Positions 13,446 to 59,325 of a stretch of DNA of 64,000 nt are shown here, piece by piece. Positions within the stretch are counted from its first letter, which is position 1; every line of letters begins with the position of its first letter. The DNA is from Telopea speciosissima. Taxonomy: Eukaryota; Streptophyta; Magnoliopsida; Proteales; Proteaceae. The position numbers and the translations under genes are program-made. Where the stretch lies: contig NC_057918.1 of the NCBI RefSeq assembly GCF_018873765.1, positions 8,750,862 through 8,814,861 on the forward strand, given 5' to 3'. The notes beneath the pieces were generated by a model that saw only the letters and a program-made list of their open reading frames with translations, made no database searches and had not been told where the DNA came from.

Positions 13446-16400
13446 CTACTGCCATGAGTGTTGTTTGTAGCTGAAACTCTCCGGATTCCACCCTCCTTCA
13501 GGCTCCTTCCTCTTCAGCACCCCACCTGCTGCCTGGTACATTCTAACTTGATCTTCAGCTAGGGCCTGGGAACTGGCGACTGAAAGTTGCCTCGATGCTG
13601 ATGGTATCCTGTCATCTCTCCCTTCCATCTCTGTAGCTCCTGGACCTGCATTCAAATCTAGACCATGCCTTCCCCACTTCCGACTGCTTTCAGGCCCTGT
13701 CGTGTTGGAAGCACTATCAGGAAGGCTTATCACATAGGGCCTCGGATAATGAGAAGAGACTGCACCTGTATGTCCCACTAGCTGTGAGGGTACAGCAGGG
13801 AAGCAGATTCCCCCACCAGGAGAAGAGTCTACATATGTTGTCGAGCCACCAGAAAAAGTCGTTGAAGGTAGAGGGAAACTAGTGCCGAAAGGGAATCCAG
13901 GATATGGGAATGGCGCAGCCAGAGAAAAAGCTACTGCAGGGGATGAAGATAACACTGATCCTCTGTACACTTCAGGCCCAAAAGTGGTGCCACCACTAGG
14001 AGGTCCTAAGATCCTTTGTGCCCCACCAGTAGCAACAATTGGGTAAGGCTGCTCCCCCCTGTCAGGCAAGATCGATGGAATGGCTACAGCCGGATAAGAG
14101 TTTCCCGGAGGGAACCATGAAAGATTTCCCAGTTCTGCATTGTTCATCCTGAGTCCAGCAACAGGCGCTAAAAATGGCACATTACTCTTGGAATGCTGGA
14201 GACGAGGTACCGGTTCTGCACCCATCTCATCAAGCCCTGGCCCATTATTCAAATCAAAGTCTCTCAACACATTAACTCCACCATTAGGTAGTCCACTAGA
14301 TGAAGATGCCCTAACTGGCATAACAGGGATTTCTACCCTACGATTGGTACTCACCGTGAATTGCGCACTCTCCGTACCTTCATCAACCCTGTTCAAGTCA
14401 AGGTCAAGTCCACCAGCACTACGGCCAGGTGCAGATGAAGCCCCAAACATCTGACTGTGTCCCAAATCTCGATTATTAGCAGACCCAGACCCAGACCCAG
14501 ACACTCTCTCTTGAGCAGAACTTTGAGAAGCCATGTCCTCAAGAAGTCTCTCATCTGGAACATTCAAGTCAATATCCAGTGGAGGGCGACCTTGTTTGCT
14601 GGCAGTCATATCATGGTGGATGTCAGTTGTACTGAGTGGCATCTCCAGAACCTTCCTAGGTTCAGCTGGCCGAAATGCACTAGTAGCAGCTGAACCTTTC
14701 CACCCAAGCTCCCCTTTACTCTTCAATAGGTTTTCAGGAGGAACAAAAGGCCTTTTATTAGGAGCAGCAACTGTAATTTGAGCAGGTACACTGCTTGATA
14801 AGGAAGGAACAGAGAAAGGTAGATGGATAGGTAGATGAATGGCAGAACTAACTGGCTCACTTTGGTTCCCTTCATCCACAGGAAAGCCTTCATTCAAATC
14901 AAAATCCAACTTAGCAGCCATATCAGTTACTGCTGCGACAGATGAAGAAGCTTCTGCCGTGGACATACATGCTTCCACATCATCGGCTTCAGGGCCAGTC
15001 AACTTTGACCCAGCTGCCTTCAAGCATTGCTCATTTTGTCCAACAGTTAATGGGGACAACTCTTCGTTGGGAGCTGATCCACCAGAACGATTCTCAAGAT
15101 GCTCCCTCTTTTCAGAAGCCTCCTCGTTCCCTTCACTTCTATGATCTGAAACAACTGAACCTACTCCAGCTCCACCTCGATCGTCGAAAGTTGGAGGAAC
15201 ATTACTTGCCTGCTCCTTTCTTTGGCACTCACTCTGCTCAACATGATTCCCCAAGTCCATGTCATCAGGCTTCTCATCCTTAATCTCATTGTCTGGAGCC
15301 ATACCATTACCAGAACTAGAGGGTAGCGGTGCATCCTTGCCAGTGAACTCTACAGACCCAGAGTCTAAATCAGCAGGTGGCTTCTGCTCGGCAGCAATGC
15401 CAGCATTAAACCCTTCATGCACAGGATTCTTGTTCTCACTATCAAATTCCACCGCTGGACAAGATGGTGACTCATCAATGGATTCCTTCTCAACTTTTAT
15501 AACAGAAACTGCGTTGTCAATGTTACAGGCATCAACAACACAACCACGAACAAGATTCGTTGCCGCTGCTATACTACTACCAGCAATCTTTTCTTCCACA
15601 TGATCAACTTTCTTCTTTTCATCTAACAGGGGACTCCAAGCCTTCGGTTTTGTCTCTGGGAAACCATCATTAGCCCCGGGAACAGCCAACTTATTCCTCT
15701 CTCGTAGTTGGCTGACTCCACCCTCTATGTCATCTTCTCTTGATTCTAGAGTGCACAAGGCCACAGAAGCAGCAACTGTATTGTCATCAAGTCTTCCATT
15801 GGATTTAAAGCACAAGTCTCCACTTTGCTGCAAACCTTTACTGGTAGATACTTGAAGCAGCTCAGTTCGCTCCCCTATTGCCTTCTCTTCAGAACATGTG
15901 ATTTTATTGTCCCCTGAAAAAAGAATTATAAAAAAAATTAATGTAAAGATATGGTTTTATTCAACCTAAAGCTATGGAGGACCCAGATATATTACCTTGC
16001 TTCTCAGTGTCACCATCTGCACCCTCAACAGGCTGACCTTGGCTTCGGGGTCCAGCATCTTCATGTGATAATCTCATTTTGGCATCATTACTAGTATAGG
16101 AGTTCTCTTGTACAGGTGAGCTTCTCCGAGGAGAATTAACAGGTGAAACCAGATCAGATTTTGACATCTCTCCCGTAGCCACACTGGCAAGCAAATTCAT
16201 TCCAACATCATCCCCTACCATAGATGCACTAGCCTCAGAGTACTTGACACAGCTTTCAATCAAAGCATTTATGGAGCTGAAAGAAGCCTTGGAATCATTT
16301 CCTGATAACGAGCAGGTAGCTTTAGATGTGTCTGTTGTTTTAGCAATCTCATCAGTATTTCTGCAACGCTCTTCATCAGGAACTGCAGCAGGTGACCCAT

Positions 16401-19400
16401 CTCCCTCATCAGATGCAATGACTCCATCTTTTACATCATTACTCTGCCATGACTCTATATTCACATCTGCCACAGTATTAGCCCGACAAGCATCAGTCTT
16501 CCCCTTCACTTTACGATCAGAGTGGTCATGCTTCTCAGAGTGCCCGGGAGAAGAAGCTCTGCTAACCATGATGGAAGTATCATCAAAAGAACCTCCACTG
16601 GCACTTCGTGCAGGGCTACGGCCAGGATTTGGAATCCTAACAATCAGCCTGTGGTTACCAACATGATCAGCAATAGGTGTATCAGGTGCTCTTTCGCATG
16701 TTAGTCCAGACTGTGATATCTTTTCGGAAGAGGCATTCCTGTTCATGGAGCTGCATTTTCCCACTGTAGTTTCCTTTTGAACTCCAGAGACAGCTGATCC
16801 TAGAAATCCATTACTTGATTTCCGATGTCGGGAAGCAGCACCAGAGGTTTTATTCACACTTATAGACCCAGCAGTGGAGCTCCTTGCATCCTCTCTACAA
16901 GAAGAACCAATAGTTTTAGCATGATCACTTGAACAAGACTGGCTATTGTTCTGAGATTGACTAGAACTGCTACTCTTTTCCTCCTTTATCGTTGACAGAG
17001 GTAGATCTGAGGCACCACCACTAACTGCCAATTTGCAATGAAAATCCTTTGAACCAGTAGCCACCGGAGCAGGTAATGACGCTGACAATTTAACAGACCC
17101 AGGGGATGCCGATGTTGACTTGGAAACAGCATCCCCTTGGCCTAGTTTAACTTGTGCCGATTTAGAAGCAGAAGGTTGTGTAACGGAGCTCTTCACAGCA
17201 ACCTCAGAAGATCCTCCTGTGCGTCTGCTTCCTCCATGGGAGACGTCTGAAAAACCTGGCTTGCTATGCCATGAAACAGCCTGGCTAGACCCAGATTTCG
17301 CATCATTGATTTTCATTTCTGCCTCAACACGTTTTTTCCATGTGTCAACTAAACTCCTAGCTTTCTTCTGGATTTCCAAGTTTTTATGACTACGCAAATG
17401 ATTCACAGACTTGCCAACATTACAGGTCTGCAGAGCATGAAGATTCACAGGCAACTTATCAAGTGCACGAAGCAAAGCCAAGAGCAACTCTTCAATTGAT
17501 TTGTCACCTTCCTTGGGGCTGCTACCATCTCCAATCTTCCCTTTATGCACCTCTTGGAGCCATTCATCCAATACTGGCAGACCCCTAAGCTGCACAAAGC
17601 GGCCAAGGCAATCAAACCTATCAGTGCCCGCTATCACATCTGCAAGCATTATTCGGCCAGCCAAGTCTATCTTCTTCTCAGCTCTATCAGGCTGCATAAG
17701 CTGAACGAATTTTTCAACCCCTTCGAAGTCAACAAGTCCTCCTTTGTCGGTTATTTTGGCAATTTCAGATTTTAACAGGTTCTCAGGTCTACAATGGCCT
17801 GGATCCCCATCATCGGTTTTTAAAGAGCGTTCTCGTTTGATTGGCTCAGAGCCCTGATCACCCCTTTCCCTCTTCTTTCCTTTACCTTGAGATGGCAATG
17901 AGCTGGCACTATTTTGTACACTATCTGAACCAGGCTTTATTGGTGGAGTTGATGTTGGACCATTCAATGGTTTTGGAGAACGCCCTCCTGACTGCACTGC
18001 TGCATGCATTTCTAGTCGTGTTTTGTCTAGTAGCTGGTCTACTTCTTCCTGTCGCTCCTATAGAAAATACAATATAGTTATAGGAACTACACATAATCAG
18101 GACAGCAATCAAAGCATACCAGAAGCAGCTCTAATACGAAAAATTATGAAGCATAAAGCGTACATTGATATAATCTTGATCAGTTAGCCACCATAAGCAC
18201 TTGTTCGCAATGTCATAAACCCGCCTGCAAACAAATGAGGATATCCCTGAAGGAAGTTCAACACCTTTACGAAGGAATGCAACTTTACACGGATGGAGTA
18301 ACGATGCAGCAGGTATCTCATCCTTGTGAAACGAATAAAACACTTCGTTTGGTGCAGCTTCCAGCAGAATGCCTTTGCCAAGCTTTACTTCAGCAGGTCG
18401 GTAAAGCCAATTTACACCTAACTTAAGATTATCCTCTTTGCCTGATGTCAACCAGCGAATTATGCCAATGAAAGGTGGTGATTCTTGCGGGGGCTTGAAA
18501 AGTGCACAGTCACCAACACTAATTTTGCGTCCATCCTACAAAACACGAGAAACTTCAGTGGAAATAAAATAAGTAGAATGGATACAAATAGAGAACAGCA
18601 AAACTACAACTTGAAAAATGAAAACCAGAGAAGATGTGGTTGTGGTCAGAAGATAAACTGATAGTTGGATCATTAGGAAATGGAATACTAAATCATAACT
18701 AGGATTACCATTAAAATGTCCAAACCATAAGCTATTTCATATAAAAAATTTAAAGCACAAACTTTCACCGATAACCAAAAAAATCCAGTATCTCAGACTC
18801 CAGAGGGCTCCTAAGCAGAATACAAGTTTTCAAAGGAGGAATAGGGAAGAATAATCCAACTACTTATCTGCAAATGCCCCCATTAATATTTTTTTCCCTT
18901 TTACCCCCTCCTGACAGGCATTTCATAAAACTTCTAAATTGATGGCCTCTTTACTGTCACCAAACAGGATCTTAACCTGCCAATAACACATTTATGATTG
19001 CAATTTAAAGAAATATCACTGCCAAGCAACTGATACGCAATTAGGTGGCTATGACTTGGAAGGAAATAAAAAATACTAAATGATACCAAAATTTAATGAA
19101 ACACTAAAGAGAAAATTTGCTAAGAAATGAACACGCACAAGTACAGCAACCAAAAAGTTAAAAAACTGTTACTGAGAACAATGTTTTTGGATGTGTAGCC
19201 TCAATTTTATAAACCCAACTGCAACTAGATCAGACCAGGCAGTAGGTGATGAAGATTCAAATAAGTTTTTAGTTAATGAGAATGAGAAAAATAACACTAC
19301 CACACAGAATATCAATGTTCCATGAAGATGCTAAGAAAAAGAAGTTTACTAACAAATGAGACTTTATTGAAATTAAAGGCGTTATGTAAGAGGTATTTGC

Positions 19401-30938: not shown

Positions 30939-33900
30939 ATGGCCATGGATTCGAGCTACGGCGATGAATTCGCGGTGGGTTGTTTTCTTTCCATTAAGAC
31001 TACGTTGGGGGACGAGTTTGAGGGTCAAATCATCACCTTCGATAAGCTTTCCAACATTCTAGTCCTTCATATCCTTTGCTCTCGCAGTCTTTACTACCAC
31101 ATCTATATATATTTGTGTTTCCCTTTTTATCTTATTCTCTTTTTATTTGTATTCACTGAAATTCTTCACATGGGTCTTTGTTCTTTCTACTTTATGCGAT
31201 TAAATTCCTTATCGTAGTTTGATTAGCACAAGAAGGTTCGAAAACGGGCCCTCGTCGAAATATTCGGCTTTTGAAGGCGAACTATATTAAGGATTTCACG
31301 CTACTGGGTCAAGCTGAGGATCCTCTTGATCACAAGAAATGTTATCTCGATCTTGCTAGTCTTCAAGCAAGGGAGGAAGCTGCTATAAGGTGATCGGATT
31401 TGAAGCATACGATGATCCAGATGCTTGTTTTGATTATTTTGTCTCCCCCACCCCCAAATAAATCTTGATGAGGTTAATTGCAGGCAAGCAGAACTAGAGG
31501 CTGTGAGAATTGGGGTTGGGGTTACCAGTGAGGCCCAGAGCGTATTTGATGCATTGTCTAAGACGTAAGTATGCTGACCTATTGGTTTCATATCGCAATT
31601 TTCTGTTTTTGGATAATAACAGCCTTTAAAAGAAGAAAGAGGACAAAGTAGACATAGGGATACATAATAATACATATAAGTACCAGTACAACAACAAGCT
31701 GGCCCTCCTCAGAAGGACCGATCCCTCAACCCCAACCCTAACCCAATTACTAAGACATACTATGAGCTCCAATTTACATCTCACAGGGGAATATAATCCC
31801 CAAAACAGATCCGGTATCTAACCACTCCTTGCTTAGCCAAATTATCAGTAACCTCATTTGCACTTCTTAGTGGCCAACGAAATTTAATATCAAATGGGGC
31901 TGTTAGTTGCTGAATTGGCCTTATAAGATGATTATAGTGCCAAGGAGCTTCCCTTAAATCTGTCATCCATTTAATCACATCAGCTGAGTTCCCATTCACC
32001 ATTGCATGAAGCTACCCTTTTCTCATATCTCAAAGTAAAGCATTTTTTTAGTAGTGTTAACTATGCCTATTACACATATAAGCCATGACAAGAGCATTGC
32101 AAACATTGGATGTAGAAGGGTATGGAAGTATTGAAATTGATGTGTCAACTAAAAGTCGGAATTCAATAGGCTACATAATAACAATAGATCATCTATAACA
32201 TAAATTAAAAGAAAAAGAAGACAGAAACACAAAAAGAATAAATGGTCGTAAACCAAGGGTTTCGAAATTGTTGATAGCTGCTCATTGGTCTCTAAGGACG
32301 GTATGTGCTTAGATTGTTTTTGGTTCGGAGGGATTTTGGTATCTAGGATGATTCCAAATAATGGAAAGGTGAAATACAAAGTATGTCCTGGTGAAGTCAA
32401 AAGTCGGGAAAGTTTGGTGTTAATGGATGAAATGACTGTGTAAGGTTAAATGGTAAAGTGTGAAGGGGGTGACAATAGAAGAGAAGGAAAATGAGAGAGG
32501 CACTAAGAACTAAGAAGTTGCAGTACTCAGTGAGTCAGTATGAATAAGTAGTTATGATAGATGTGGGAGAGATGAAATTGATGGTAATAAGATTCAAAGA
32601 GTTGTAGCCAACTATTTCTCTTTTTCCTTCCCCCCTTTCAGCTGCAGTAGTCCATTTTCTTATCTCATGAGTCTGGGTATTCTGTAGCATGGATGGTGTT
32701 TAAAAATTTTATTGAGATGCTATGTAGGCAAAGGTTCCATTGTGATGGTCTGAATTGGATGCTATCTTGCTAGATGGCTAATCTGTGTGCCTGAATTGTG
32801 TCCATGGTTTATTGGACTTTTAAAGTTGGATGTTTGGTGAACTTGTCCCAACTACCCATTTGTCGAAATTTCCCTAATGGGGATGTGTTAAGCTACTAAT
32901 TACCTGATTAAGTTGCCCCAGTGCCATCCCTATTCCCTTCTCATGTCATGGTCTTGAATCTTGATCGCATGCTCGTATGCCTGTAAGGGTCCACACACCA
33001 AATATTTGTCAGTGTTAGCAAGATTTCTCTGACATTGATAAATTGCTGCATTATAAGTGACGGGTTATAACTCTTCTTCACCCTACGTGCTCCTCATGCT
33101 TCGGTGCCTTTGCTCAATTCTGTCTAGCACATCGGCAACCTGTTGATAATTCTTTTGTCTGTAGTGCTTAGTGTTTCTAATTATCTCTTTCTTCACAATA
33201 ATAAAATTTAAATCATTGATTTGGTAAACAAATACTTCAGAGAATTTAGTTTTTCTCTTTTGGTCCTTTTATGATGTTCTCTACATTTGTCATGGTCTTG
33301 ATCTTATATGCTTGTTTGCGCATAAGGGTCCATGCACTAAATGTTTGTCAGGATTAGTAAGAACTCGTTGACATGGATAAAAATTGCTGCATTTATATTC
33401 AACACATGTTTCAGCGCCTTTGCCTTATTCTGTTTAGTTCCTGTGTCAATGAGCTGTCCATTGATAAATTATGTTTTTGGCAGTGCTTAGTGCTTCAAGT
33501 TGTCTCTTCATTTACAATGACAAGAAGGTTTAGATGATTGTCTTGGTGAACAAATACTTTAGAGCATTTAATATCAGCCTTTTAACCCTTTTATGACCTG
33601 TTTCTTCTATCAAGACTTTCTTCCTCACAAGCTTCTTGCATTAATTTTTTAAAACTGGACATTACTGTATTAAGATTTCTCAACTTCACTTTATTATAAA
33701 CCATTGAGTTTTCTCACAGATTGGAGTTACTACTTCTGGTGCCAAAAGTATGTGTAGTTGACAATCACAGTGAAATATTCTCTAGTGTATTGTCTTAAAA
33801 GTTACATCACATCCTTACTTTCAAATGCATCTGTTCTTGCTGACCATTCATGTTCACTGATCAGGCTTCCAGTTCACTGGGACAAGACTGTCATTGTGGT

Positions 33901-34146
33901 GATGAATGAAGTTCGCGTTAGCAGTCCATATCTCCCTGAAAATGTAATTGGTGGAACCCCTGCTGCCAATGATCGGGTGAAGAAAGTGGTAATCCATATT
34001 GATACTCGGTGATGCGGAGTTTTTGTTTTTGATTGTCCTTTCATTTTTTAAATGTATTTCAGGTTTCAGTTGGGGGTTTTGGCTTATTGTTTTTGCAGCT
34101 AGAATTTGAAAGGAAGAGGTTGCATGCCCGTGGTCCAAGCCAGTGA
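30939..34146 (+). CDS. LSM12: LSM12-like Lsm/anticodon-binding-domain protein
   Basis: The exons are 30939-31068, 31230-31389, 31484-31564, 33865-33988 and 34099-34146 (180 aa; phases close). The N-terminal half is an Lsm-like fold ([36 protein letters not shown]). The C-terminal half is the AD domain: [18 protein letters not shown], then [27 protein letters not shown] and [12 protein letters not shown]12 proteins are small RNA-associated factors; yeast and animal members bind Ataxin-2-type partners. Intron 1 has AT-AC ends (separate entry); introns 2-4 are GT-AG. ATG at 30939 or 30945 could start; the first is used. Intron 3 (2.3 kb) contains a LINE piece. Confidence 0.9.
31069..31229 (+). 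other. U12-type AT-AC intron of LSM12
   Basis: The intron begins ATATCCTTT immediately after GTCCTTC and ends ...GATTAGCAC before AAGAAGGTTCG. Joining CTT C + AA GAA GGT gives LVLQEGSK, the expected Lsm2-like continuation; no GT-AG choice keeps this frame and wording. TTCCTTATC, 16 bases before the acceptor, matches the U12 branch-site consensus TTCCTTRAC at 8 of 9 positions. Confidence 0.85.
31640..32025 (-). pseudogene. LINE RNase H fragment in LSM12 intron 3
   Basis: The minus frame 32002-31781 encodes [21 protein letters not shown], then [23 protein letters not shown], the C-terminal end of a plant LINE RNase H (RVT_3) domain. The rest of the reverse transcriptase is missing, so the copy is 5'-truncated. 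It lies antisense to LSM12. Confidence 0.7.
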
Positions 34147-36270: not shown

Positions 36271-36613
36271 TATGCAGGGACTTCATAGTTTCTCCCATTG
36301 CACAAGAATTCCAATTCAGCTGATGGAACTGGTGCAGTGAGACATAATTGGACGAGAACGGGATCCTAGTACTATCTTCTTTGGTTAGAGCTTTTCTACT
36401 CGCAGATTCTCCATTTTATATTACAAATGGAGATGATGGGAGTTTGTTAACCCATGTTCAGTCCTCCTTTCTTGTCTCGTGGAGAGTCATTTCAATTGCT
36501 TCTGTTTGGAAATTTCAATCCGACTGTTGCAATTCATTTTCCATTTTTTAACTCTGAAACTACTTAAGTTTCTTTAACAGGATATTGTACCTGGTTCCCT
36601 TGTAGTTTTTACT

Positions 36614-38989
36614 ATGGATAATCCCAACAATTACTCTGTACTAGATATCAATGGCGATGCTGTATCAGTGCTTCCCGAGAAATCTAAAACTAAGAACACC
36701 AAGCAGTTCGCTTGGGTTCTTCTCCTCAGAGCTCACAGAGCTGTTTCATGTCTTTTCTGGTTAGTGAAAACTTTCTTCGCAATGGTTGCTGCAGCGAAGA
36801 AACGAATAATCTTCTTGAGAAGAAGAGAAGAACCCAAAAACAGGGGAGGATTATTAAGGTTTGTAAAAGTACTTCTTCTTGTTTCAATGGCAGCTCTCTT
36901 CTTAGATGTCATTGCCCATCTGAAAGGATGGAATTTAGGTCTAATTCAACCTTTGAAGGCTCAGAGTAGTATACATTGGTCTTATCTGGGTTGGCTCTCA
37001 TTTAGAGCTGATTATATTGCTCCAATGATTAAGGGGCTCTCTAAATTCTGTATTGTTCTGTTCTTGGTTCAATCACTCGATCGGCTACTGCTCTGTCTCG
37101 GGTGTTTCTGGATTAAATTTAAAAGTTTGAAGCCCACGGCAGAAGGAAACGCATATGACCTTGAGGATTCCTGTGGATTCCCTTTGGTTCTCGTTCAAAT
37201 TCCCATGTGCAATGAGAGAGAGGTAACATTCTATTTAATCAACACACAGATTTCTTTGTTTCTTTTACAAATGCCAATGGCTGTGTTCCAAGACACTCTC
37301 CTCTAACTAGATTCATTATATCCTGAGAGAGGCTAGTTAGTGTAGTTACAATGCAAGTTCTCATGTTTCAGTGTTTTCTGTTTGTCTAATTTGGTTAATT
37401 GCATTGCATTCTATACAGGTTTATGCACAGTCAATCTCAGCTGCATGTCAGTTGGATTGGCCTAGGGATCGGCTCCTAATTCAGGTCCTAGATGATTCAG
37501 ATGAAGAAAGTATACAGCTTCTAATCAGAGATGAAGTCTCTGCATGGAGGCAGAAAGGACTGAACATAGTCTACCAACACCGACTCATCAGAACTGGTTA
37601 CAAAGCTGGCAACCTAAAATCAGCCATGGCTTGTGATTACATCAAAGACTATGAGTTTGTTGCAATATTTGATGCTGATTTCCAACCCAATCCAGATTTC
37701 CTTAAATTAACAATCCCACACTTCAAGGTTATTATAATCCTAACAAACCCAAGAACAGAATATATTTTGGAAAAACAATTAAGAATTTGTGCTCTTGATA
37801 ATCTTCCTCATTAGTGATATATTGTGATTGACTTCACAGGACAATCCTGAGCTGGGTCTTGTTCAAGCCCGTTGGTCTTTCGTGAACAAAGATGAGAACT
37901 TGCTAACGCGGCTCCAGAACATAAGTTTAAGCTTTCACTTTGAGGTAGAGCAGCAAGTAAATGGCATTTTCCTCAACTTCTTTGGGTTCAATGGAACTGC
38001 AGGTGTGTGGAGAATTAAGGCACTTGAGGACTCGGGAGGTTGGCTTGAGAGAACCACTGTTGAGGATATGGATATTGCAGTTCGGGCTCACTTGAATGGG
38101 TGGAAGTTCATCTTCCTCAATGATGTTAGGGTGCTCTGTGAATTACCAGAGTCTTATGAAGCTTACAAGAAACAACAGCAACGTTGGCATTCGGGTCCAA
38201 TGCAGCTATTTCGATTATGTCTTCCCAGTATCATCACCTCTAAGGTTATTCTCAGTTGCCACAGCTTCAATTACCTAAAGGCTATGAGGTTGATCTTCAC
38301 TAAGTTTGATAAAATTATTCTTGGCTAACTTTGATATTATTTTGGTGCAGATATCAATTTGGAAGAAAGCCAACTTGATTTTCCTCTTCTTCCTTCTCAG
38401 AAAACTGATTCTTCCATTCTACTCCTTCACATTGTTCTGCATCATCCTTCCATTAACAATATTTGTACCAGAGGTCGAATTACCTACATGGGTGATCTGT
38501 TACTTGCCCATCTTGATGTCCCTTCTGAACATCCTACCTGCCCCAAAATCGTTTCCTTTCTTAGTTCCATTCCAACTGTTTGAGAACACCATGTCCGTGA
38601 CAAAATTCAATGCGATGGTGTCAGGGCTATTTCAGCTGGGGAGTGCTTATGAATGGGTTGTGACAAAGAAGTCAGGGAGATCATCTGAATCAGATTTAAT
38701 AGGGATGACTGAGGTGGCATTGAAGTCTTCTAATCAGCAGAAGCTCCATGAGAGAGTATCTGAATCTGATCTAGCAGTTTCAAGTAAATTACATAAACAT
38801 GAAAAGATTCCATTGAGAAACAAGAAAAACAAACTCTACAGAAAGGAGCTTGTGCTTGCATTTCTTCTACTCACTGCATCTGCAAGAAGCCTAGTATCAG
38901 CTCATGGTTTGCATTTCTATTTCTTGTTGTTTCAAGGTCTATCATTCCTTATTGTTGGCTTGGACCTGATTGGAGAACAGATGCAGTGA
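36614..38989 (+). CDS. CSLC: CSLC cellulose synthase-like C (xyloglucan beta-1,4-glucan synthase)
   Basis: The exons are 36614-37222, 37419-37727, 37840-38244 and 38351-38989, all phase 0 (653 aa). It is a GT2-family enzyme of the Golgi membrane; CSLC proteins make the beta-1,4-glucan backbone of xyloglucan. The start [15 protein letters not shown] aligns with the usual MENPNYSIVEVDG start. Catalytic signatures are DD (228-229), DAD (288-290), TVED (379-382) and QxxRW (418-422). Hydrophobic segments near residues 85-105 and 140-165 precede the catalytic loop, and more follow from about residue 450. The tail has a Ser-rich linker (GRSSESDL) and two final membrane spans. It is slightly shorter than typical members (about 670-700 aa), mostly in the linker. 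The exact subclass (CSLC4, 5, 6, 8 or 12) is not determined. Confidence 0.93.
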
Positions 38990-41316: not shown

Positions 41317-42255
41317 TCAATCTGTCGTACCCCCAAGCGACAGGGCCTTTCGAGCTAGGGCATCTGACATACCATTTATAGCCCTAGGGATAAAAAAGAA
41401 AGATACAGAGTGAAATTGGGAAGCCAGCCAATGAGCATCCGAAATCAAATCCTCCACCTCCAAGCAAGGAGTTTTATCGCCCTTGATACATAAAACTGCA
41501 TCATTACTATCAGTTTCAACGAGGATATTCTCAAGACCCATCTCCAAAGCTGCAGTGACCACTTCGAATAGCAAGGACCTCCCTTGGATGATGGAACCAA
41601 AATGATAGGGGATAGACAGTGCCTTTTTTAAAACTCTAGTATGATCCCGCAAGACCACCCCTAAACCACCTCTACTTCTATCTTTTAGAAAGGCAGCGTC
41701 GCAGTTTAACTTGATCACCCCAACAGGTGGGGGTTTCCAGTGATGGCAAGATTGGGGGGTACTATCAGCTCTAACATTTGGAAGAGCATTCTGCTTCTGA
41801 GTTACTGCTATAAACTCCAAGTAGGCCTTTTCTGTGATCATAATAACATCTGTGGGGGTCCAGGCTTTACCATTGAAAACCAACTCATTGCGAGCTCTCC
41901 AAAGGAACCAGCAAATAAAAGATGCTCTTGCAAGAGCATCACGGGCCATCCTCCTGTCATCATGAAACCACACGCCCTAGCTTTGGATCCAGTCCACTAA
42001 ACAAGGAGCTTCACTAGGGGGGGAGAACTGCAGAGGGGATCCAAACCATACACTTCTCGCAAAAGGACAATCAAACAGTAAATGATCACCTGTTTCTGGG
42101 GTTGCACTGCACCTCGGATAGATAGGATCCACTTGAACTTTGCAAGACACCAAATTTGCTCCAGTGGCCAGGGCTTCATTGCAGGTCCTCCAAAGAAAGG
42201 TTTCTCCATCTAATAAGAAAGTCAAATACCATAATTGAAGAGATTCACTCTTCAT
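41317..42255 (-). pseudogene. LINE ORF2 3' fragment: zf-RVT plus RNase H
   Basis: It is one frame on the minus strand, broken only by a TAG at 41977-41979. Residues from 42255: FLLDGETFLWRTCNEALATG, then a zf-RVT Cys/His cluster (C-TPETGDHLLFDCPFARSVW). After the stop comes FICWFLWRARNELVFNG and a full RNase H domain: KLNCDAAF, RGGLGVVLRDH, FEVVTAALEMGLENILVETDSNDAV, IPRAINGMSDALARKAL. Reverse transcriptase and endonuclease are absent, so it is 5'-truncated. The near-intact frame suggests a fairly young insertion. Confidence 0.85.
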
Positions 42256-57799: not shown

Positions 57800-59325
57800 T
57801 TTGGACACTTGCGAAGCTGCAATAACTAGTGAGGGCTTTAGACAAACAAGCAGACATGAAGTGACCATTCTCTTGGATGTTGTTGCCCTTGAAGAAAAAT
57901 TTAAACTCCACACTAAGTGGGAATCACTGCAGCTGAGTATGCTCTGAACAACAATTATTTGGTGAACATCATATGCAATTGGGCTTCCTCTTTAATCCAA
58001 TATTTCCAAACAATCTTAATCAAATGTATTTCATGGAAATTTTTTGAATCATTAGCTGTTTTAGGGAATATGATCGAAGGACCAATGCAACACAAGTATT
58101 TATTTGTTCCGGTTGCAAGAAAGGATATTTTGTCATCTCTAAACTCCTAAGCAACTGAAGTAAGTCCTGTTCATCTGTGATCTTTGCATGCAGGTTTTCC
58201 CCCCTTCCATAATGAGTGAAATTGTTTGTTTTACACTTATGTGAATCCTCCTAGTACTTGATGAGTTATTTTGTTATTCAAGAGTGGCCTATTTCTCTTG
58301 ATGCCTGAAAATCTCTAATTTTATTAAAGAGGGTTGTAAATCCTATTATTTCTTATGGCAGACCACAGTACTTTTGGGACATTGAGAGGGTGTTTTGGAC
58401 ACTTCATTCAATAGGAAGGGGAGATATATTGGATATTCGTGGTTTGGTGTCGATCAGAGAACTTTTCAATATTTCCTATAGTGAAAGTTTTATCTAGACG
58501 ACAGCTTAAGGATTAATTTTCCTTTTCACATTGGAATGGTTTTTCACGTTAAAAATTAGTATATCATTTCGTGGTTTGGATTAAATTTAATTTATCTGCA
58601 CTATTAGTTTTGCACATATGTTGTTGCTATATATCTTCATTAATTTGCACACGTGTAGGAATATAACTTGTTTTTCTTAACACAAACTTTATAGGAAGCG
58701 AGGTTACCCTGACAATGGACCAACCTTACCTAGTGAGCTAGTTTGCACCTTCATCTTTGAACCATTGAGATAGACAAGTACTTTCATGATTTGAAAGTGG
58801 GAATTGGTGAATGAAAGAGAAGTTAATTTACAACAAGGTAACTTATTTTACATTTGCATTTTAGGATTTGAAATTATTGATTAGGCTTAATCCCCTCCTT
58901 TCTTCTTCTAGTTAGCTTTCATTCTTGGTTTTAGTCTATTTCCTTCTTCTCATTTACAAAAAGAATTGCTAAATTTTACAAGTGAGCCAAATTGGAAAAC
59001 TAATAATTGGTGAGAGAATGGAAGAATGTCCAGCCAAAAAAAATTGTATGGGCACAAAATTCAAGCCATTCTTAACAACACTATTAGCCAGCTGGCCATC
59101 TATATATAAAGGTAAAAACTTGAAAGTGACTTTAATGGGGTCTTATTTAACTTTTTGTCTCAAGAGGTTGAAAGGATGTGCAACAATGACTCTGATGTTG
59201 CAGATTCAGAGCATCCCTTAAATATATATACCATCCAAGCAGATTGTAAGAAATACATTGAAAAGCTATAGGCCATTTAACCTCCATATGACTTGATATC
59301 CAAAGCATGTTCATTAATATATATA
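57800..59325. other. Intergenic DNA, nothing recognised
   Basis: Frames at 57917-58150 and 58982-59221 are short and do not resemble known proteins; no RNA gene fold is apparent. Confidence 0.45.

Follow-up and report, generated by a model that had tools for sequence, protein, structure and literature searches.

Evidence for a U12-type AT-AC first intron in a plant LSM12 gene and its diverged duplicate

Results

The LSM12 gene in the window

The window, by which we mean the whole stretch of 64,000 nucleotides that was analysed (C3:8750862-8814861), carries an intact LSM12 gene on its plus strand at 30939-34146, which according to our exon model has five exons and encodes 180 amino acids followed by a stop codon. 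The coding part of exon 1 runs from the ATG at 30939 to 31068, ends in ...CTAGTCCTTC and stops in phase 1. It is supported by its translation and by the Pfam family LSM12_LSM, and is likewise 130 nt long in a duplicate of the gene. Exons 2 (31230..31389), 3 (31484..31564), 4 (33865..33988) and 5 (34099..34146, including the stop codon), all on the plus strand, are given by the exon model and by the duplicate, and introns 2-4 are of the GT-AG type. The protein has an Lsm domain followed by an anticodon-binding (AD) domain, with scores of 50 bits for PF21166 and 86.2 bits for PF09793, both above the Pfam cut-off and both obtained with a query protein whose sequence had an additional V where exons 4 and 5 meet.

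The third intron is 2300 nt long in the window copy and 1816 nt in the duplicate. On the minus strand within it, at 31781-32008, lies an RVT_3 fragment (reverse-transcriptase-like RNase H) of 20.1 bits, just below the cut-off of 21.6, which is probably the remnant of a retrotransposon. An Rfam scan of the window gave no match above the gathering scores. Pattern matches to LSM12 were found among the genome contigs (103) and the viral contigs (7), and none of them was confirmed as a relative. The PDB sequence search, carried up to E 1, returned a single match at E 0.67, which we did not accept as a relative.

Splice signals of intron 1

Intron 1 lies at 31069..31229 on the plus strand, is 161 nt long and of phase 1, and is kept in the duplicate gene. 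It opens with ATATCCTTTGC and closes with GATTAGCAC. The first-pass annotation had placed an intron with AT-AC ends here; its coordinates are exact, and so is the CAC at which it let the intron close (31227..31229, the same end as in the duplicate). The 5' splice site ATATCCTTT, at 31069..31077, fits the U12-type motif [A/G]TATCCTT in 9/9 positions and is identical in the duplicate in all nine. The branch site TTCCTTATC, at 31205..31213, has one mismatch to TTCCTTRAY, and every other 9-mer of the intron has three or more. The mismatch falls on one A of the branch pair, which reads ATC in the window copy and AAC in the duplicate; in U12-type introns in general, either A of the pair can act as the branch point. 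From the last base of the branch site to the last base of the intron there are 16 nt, as had been claimed, which is more than the optimum of 11-13 nt given for U12-type introns in PMC3584512. A U2-type AT-AC intron was ruled out, since position +5 is a C here and a G in the sodium-channel U2-type AT-AC introns treated in PMC2831892.

To choose the junction we combined donors GT, GC or AT at 30990-31139 with AG or AC acceptors whose last base falls within 31150-31269, enumerated as GT-AG, GC-AG, AT-AG and AT-AC pairs, and retained those that keep the frame. There are 28 such pairs, and 31069/31229 is the only one that gives LVLQEGSK, so the earlier statement that no other choice restores this wording holds. 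The N-terminal part of the product of each of the 28 junctions was scored against LSM12_LSM. The pair 31069/31229 comes out on top with 53.0 bits, followed by the GC-AG pair 31078/31226 with 50.7 bits; the AT-AG pair 31069/31226, which shares the donor of the best pair, reaches 49.0 bits, the best of the eight GT-AG pairs 48.8 bits, and the product of intron retention 34.4 bits. The margin over the next junction is a modest 2.3 bits, and the profile by itself is thus not decisive.

Three bases upstream of the AC both copies have an AG, in the context TTAGCAC in the window and TCAGCAC in the duplicate. In the window this possible alternative acceptor (31225..31226, plus strand) would give an AT-AG intron of 158 nt; the frame would be kept, and with one proline added the predicted product reads LVLPQEGSK. 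If the intron is retained altogether, the frame meets a stop at 31215..31217 (plus strand) and yields a product of 92 aa, of which the first 43 alone are LSM12, so intron-retaining transcripts would be unable to make the LSM12 protein.

The motifs were also compared with chance, using 200 first-order Markov sequences. For the 9-mer ATATCCTTT the expectation is 0.68 copies per strand, and the window has one copy on either strand; the combination of donor, branch site with at most one mismatch and AC within 1 kb is expected 0.225 times per strand. The minus-strand copy of the donor, at 58128, has branch-site and AC partners too and is presumably a chance match. When one mismatch is allowed in the donor, partners are found for 9 of 22 donors on the plus strand and for 9 of 27 on the minus strand. 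For one given position, such as the break in the LSM12 frame, the expectation for the donor is 0.68/64000, about 1e-5. The bare 9-mer is not rare, and the case therefore rests on its position at the frame break and on its retention in the diverged duplicate.

The duplicate gene

In the assembly to which the window belongs (822.9 Mb, 1287 contigs) we found a second LSM12 gene, on contig C8, with an intact frame of 180 aa and exons of 130/160/81/124/48 nt, the same lengths as in the window copy. The two copies differ by a dN of 0.053 and a dS of 0.41 (NG86); a dN/dS of about 0.13 together with the intact frame makes the pair look constrained. The first intron of the duplicate, C8:10249398-10249259, is 140 nt long, interrupts the same codon position and has the donor ATATCCTTT, a perfect branch site TTCCTTAAC and the end CAGCAC. 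The presence of the same signals at the same codon position implies that the intron is older than the duplication of the gene. The ATC of the window branch site is most simply read as a change from AAC, although a comparison of two copies makes this direction tentative.

In the donor, the branch site and the last five bases taken together, 22/23 positions are identical between the copies, as compared to 89/117 ungapped positions in the remainder of the intron, where 21 more window positions are gapped. The binomial probability of this difference is 0.015 for ungapped positions and 0.0006 if gaps are counted as differences. The conservation of the signals is suggestive rather than overwhelming, because the entire 3' part of the intron is alike in both copies. 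We regard the duplicate gene as the strongest evidence for a U12-type first intron.

Minor-spliceosome RNAs in the genome

The assembly contains at least one match to the U12 snRNA (87.2 bits, Rfam cut-off 53) and at least ten matches to U6atac above the Rfam cut-off, the top one at 91.3 bits. These counts are lower bounds, as the best candidates alone were scored (44 and 46, respectively), and the same searches in 14 control genomes gave no match. The U12 match includes AGTAAGGAA, which is complementary to the core of the branch site. Three of the ten U6atac loci were examined. All three have AAGGAGAG near the start, two have AAAGGA, to which the TCCTTT of the donor is complementary, and all three are preceded by TAGTCCCACATCG and a TATA-like stretch, which we take to be similar to USE and TATA, the promoter elements of plant snRNA genes. 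Among the lower-scoring U6atac matches there may be several pseudogenes. The predicted duplex energies between U12 and the branch site, -9.1 for the window copy and -7.4 for the duplicate, were set aside as support, since no A is bulged in either pairing.

Discussion

Judging from the sequence, the first of the four introns in this intact plant LSM12 gene, 31069-31229, is very probably a spliceosomal intron of the U12 type with AT-AC ends. The donor, the branch site, the acceptor, the reading frame, the Pfam score, the duplicate and the genes for U12 and U6atac all agree with this assignment, which the first-pass annotation had proposed. In the minor spliceosome the donor is read by U11 and then by U6atac, and U12 pairs with the branch site. 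For the intron described here this would mean that U11 followed by U6atac reads ATATCCTTT, that U12 pairs with TTCCTTATC, and that the joining of the exons at 31068/31230 completes the Lsm domain across LVL-Q-EGSK. The AT-AC sites are probably in use. It is conceivable that U12-dependent splicing of this intron is slow or limiting, and that transcripts which retain it, with the stop at 31215 lying upstream of four exons, are either destroyed or give rise to a short protein.

The acceptor is where another outcome comes closest, although that too is improbable. The donor would be the same, but the AG at 31226 would be used wholly or in part, giving an AT-AG intron and LVLPQEGSK. This AG is in frame, is kept in both copies and lies closer to the end of the branch site, at 13 nt instead of 16, and the choice of 3' site in U12-type introns is described as error-prone (PMC3584512). 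The same source describes AT-AG combinations as disfavoured, however, and with this acceptor the LSM12_LSM score drops from 53.0 to 49.0 bits. It is even less probable that the window gene is a decaying duplicate in which the first intron is no longer well spliced. The mutated branch site, TTCCTTATC as compared to TTCCTTAAC in the duplicate, would fit such a gene, but its frame is open through all five exons, introns 2-4 have kept their GT-AG ends and the dN/dS between the copies is low.

The least probable explanation, to which we give hardly any weight, is that the intron is of the ordinary U2 type, with GT-AG or GC-AG ends at other positions, and that the U12-like motifs have arisen by chance. 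The donor motif alone is indeed no rarity, being present once per strand in the window, and the GC-AG pair 31078/31226 comes near the best score. Yet all 13 frame-compatible GT-AG and GC-AG pairs make the Lsm domain longer or shorter and stay below the score of 31069/31229. The donor, a near-identical branch site and the AC end moreover recur, with the codon position unchanged, in a second copy that has diverged to a dS of 0.41, which makes chance an unlikely cause.

As a U12-type AT-AC intron, the first intron of LSM12, an RNA-associated Lsm gene, is a solid and newly documented case of an established class, though not a surprising one. It resembles the plant U12-type AT-AC introns of the IAOD (Table 2 of PMC7367187) in its termini, in its donor consensus, in having the branch site near the acceptor and in not being of phase 0, and differs from them solely by one base of the branch site and by a slightly long distance from the branch site to the acceptor. 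The remark in the first-pass annotation that AT-AC introns are rare in plants needs context: AT-AC introns make up 13-26% of the U12-type introns in the four plants of the same table. It has also been pointed out that ab initio prediction has difficulty with non-canonical splice sites (PMC5716242), and for this reason gene models may miss the first intron of LSM12.

A U12-type intron in LSM12 has been tabulated for animals. In PMC2831892 a GT-AG intron of this type, number 1 of 4, is listed for Drosophila (CG15735) and human, the species to which the number refers being unspecified. The plant gene thus shares with the fly and human entries the gene itself, the U12 type and the position as intron 1 of 4, whereas the subtype is AT-AC in the plant and GT-AG in fly and human. 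Since the plant gene has four introns of which the first is U12-type, and a U12-type intron is published for animal LSM12, the two introns probably share an origin, the subtype having changed since. Compared by type and intron number, plant and animal LSM12 are likely to have one ancient intron in common, which suggests that LSM12 is among the genes with a U12-type intron common to plants and animals. A more elaborate scenario, in which one U12-type intron retained from the common ancestor has switched between AT-AC and GT-AG, the copies in this plant differ in the efficiency of minor splicing owing to the altered branch site, and a conserved tandem acceptor of AG and AC gives rise to two variants of the Lsm domain, is improbable as a whole.

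The first-pass annotation also tied the expression of LSM12 to the activity of the minor spliceosome. The fly evidence on this point is mixed. In ovaries that lack the minor-splicing factor Miso, retention was up in the 14 minor introns measured, and eight of the 12 detected proteins from genes with minor introns were lowered, among them Lsm12a (PMC12084885). In U6atac-mutant flies, on the other hand, all five LSM12 probes were unchanged throughout the larval stages (PMC2952598). A regulatory tie of this kind in a plant is conjectural.

Among the papers listed by our literature searches, judged mostly by titles and the beginnings of abstracts, none was seen to describe a U12-type intron in plant LSM12. 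Among the titles of the literature that names AT1G24050, presumably the Arabidopsis LSM12, none is on splicing. The databases U12DB, ERISdb or IAOD, which are named in PMC7367187, may well list the intron. The most useful aspect is that the duplicate pair differs by one base of the branch-site consensus. The two copies could serve as a test of how much weight the A pair of the branch site carries in plant minor splicing.

Other features of the window

Some further coding features were seen in the window. The open frame at 41317-41973 on the minus strand scores 56.6 bits for RVT_3 and is retrotransposon-like. Two long open frames on the minus strand, 15961-18054 and 13446-15953, nearly abut each other in different frames. 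Pfam recognised a Med26/TFIIS helical domain (51.1 bits) in the first and nothing in the second; the two may belong to a single gene for a large nuclear protein, separated by a small intron or a shift of frame. Downstream of LSM12, consecutive open frames cover 36578-38986 on the plus strand. Three of the four that were scanned there gave no Pfam match, and the remaining one, 37828-38325, matched glycosyltransferase family 2 at 56.1 bits. The region reads to us like a cellulose-synthase-like C gene.
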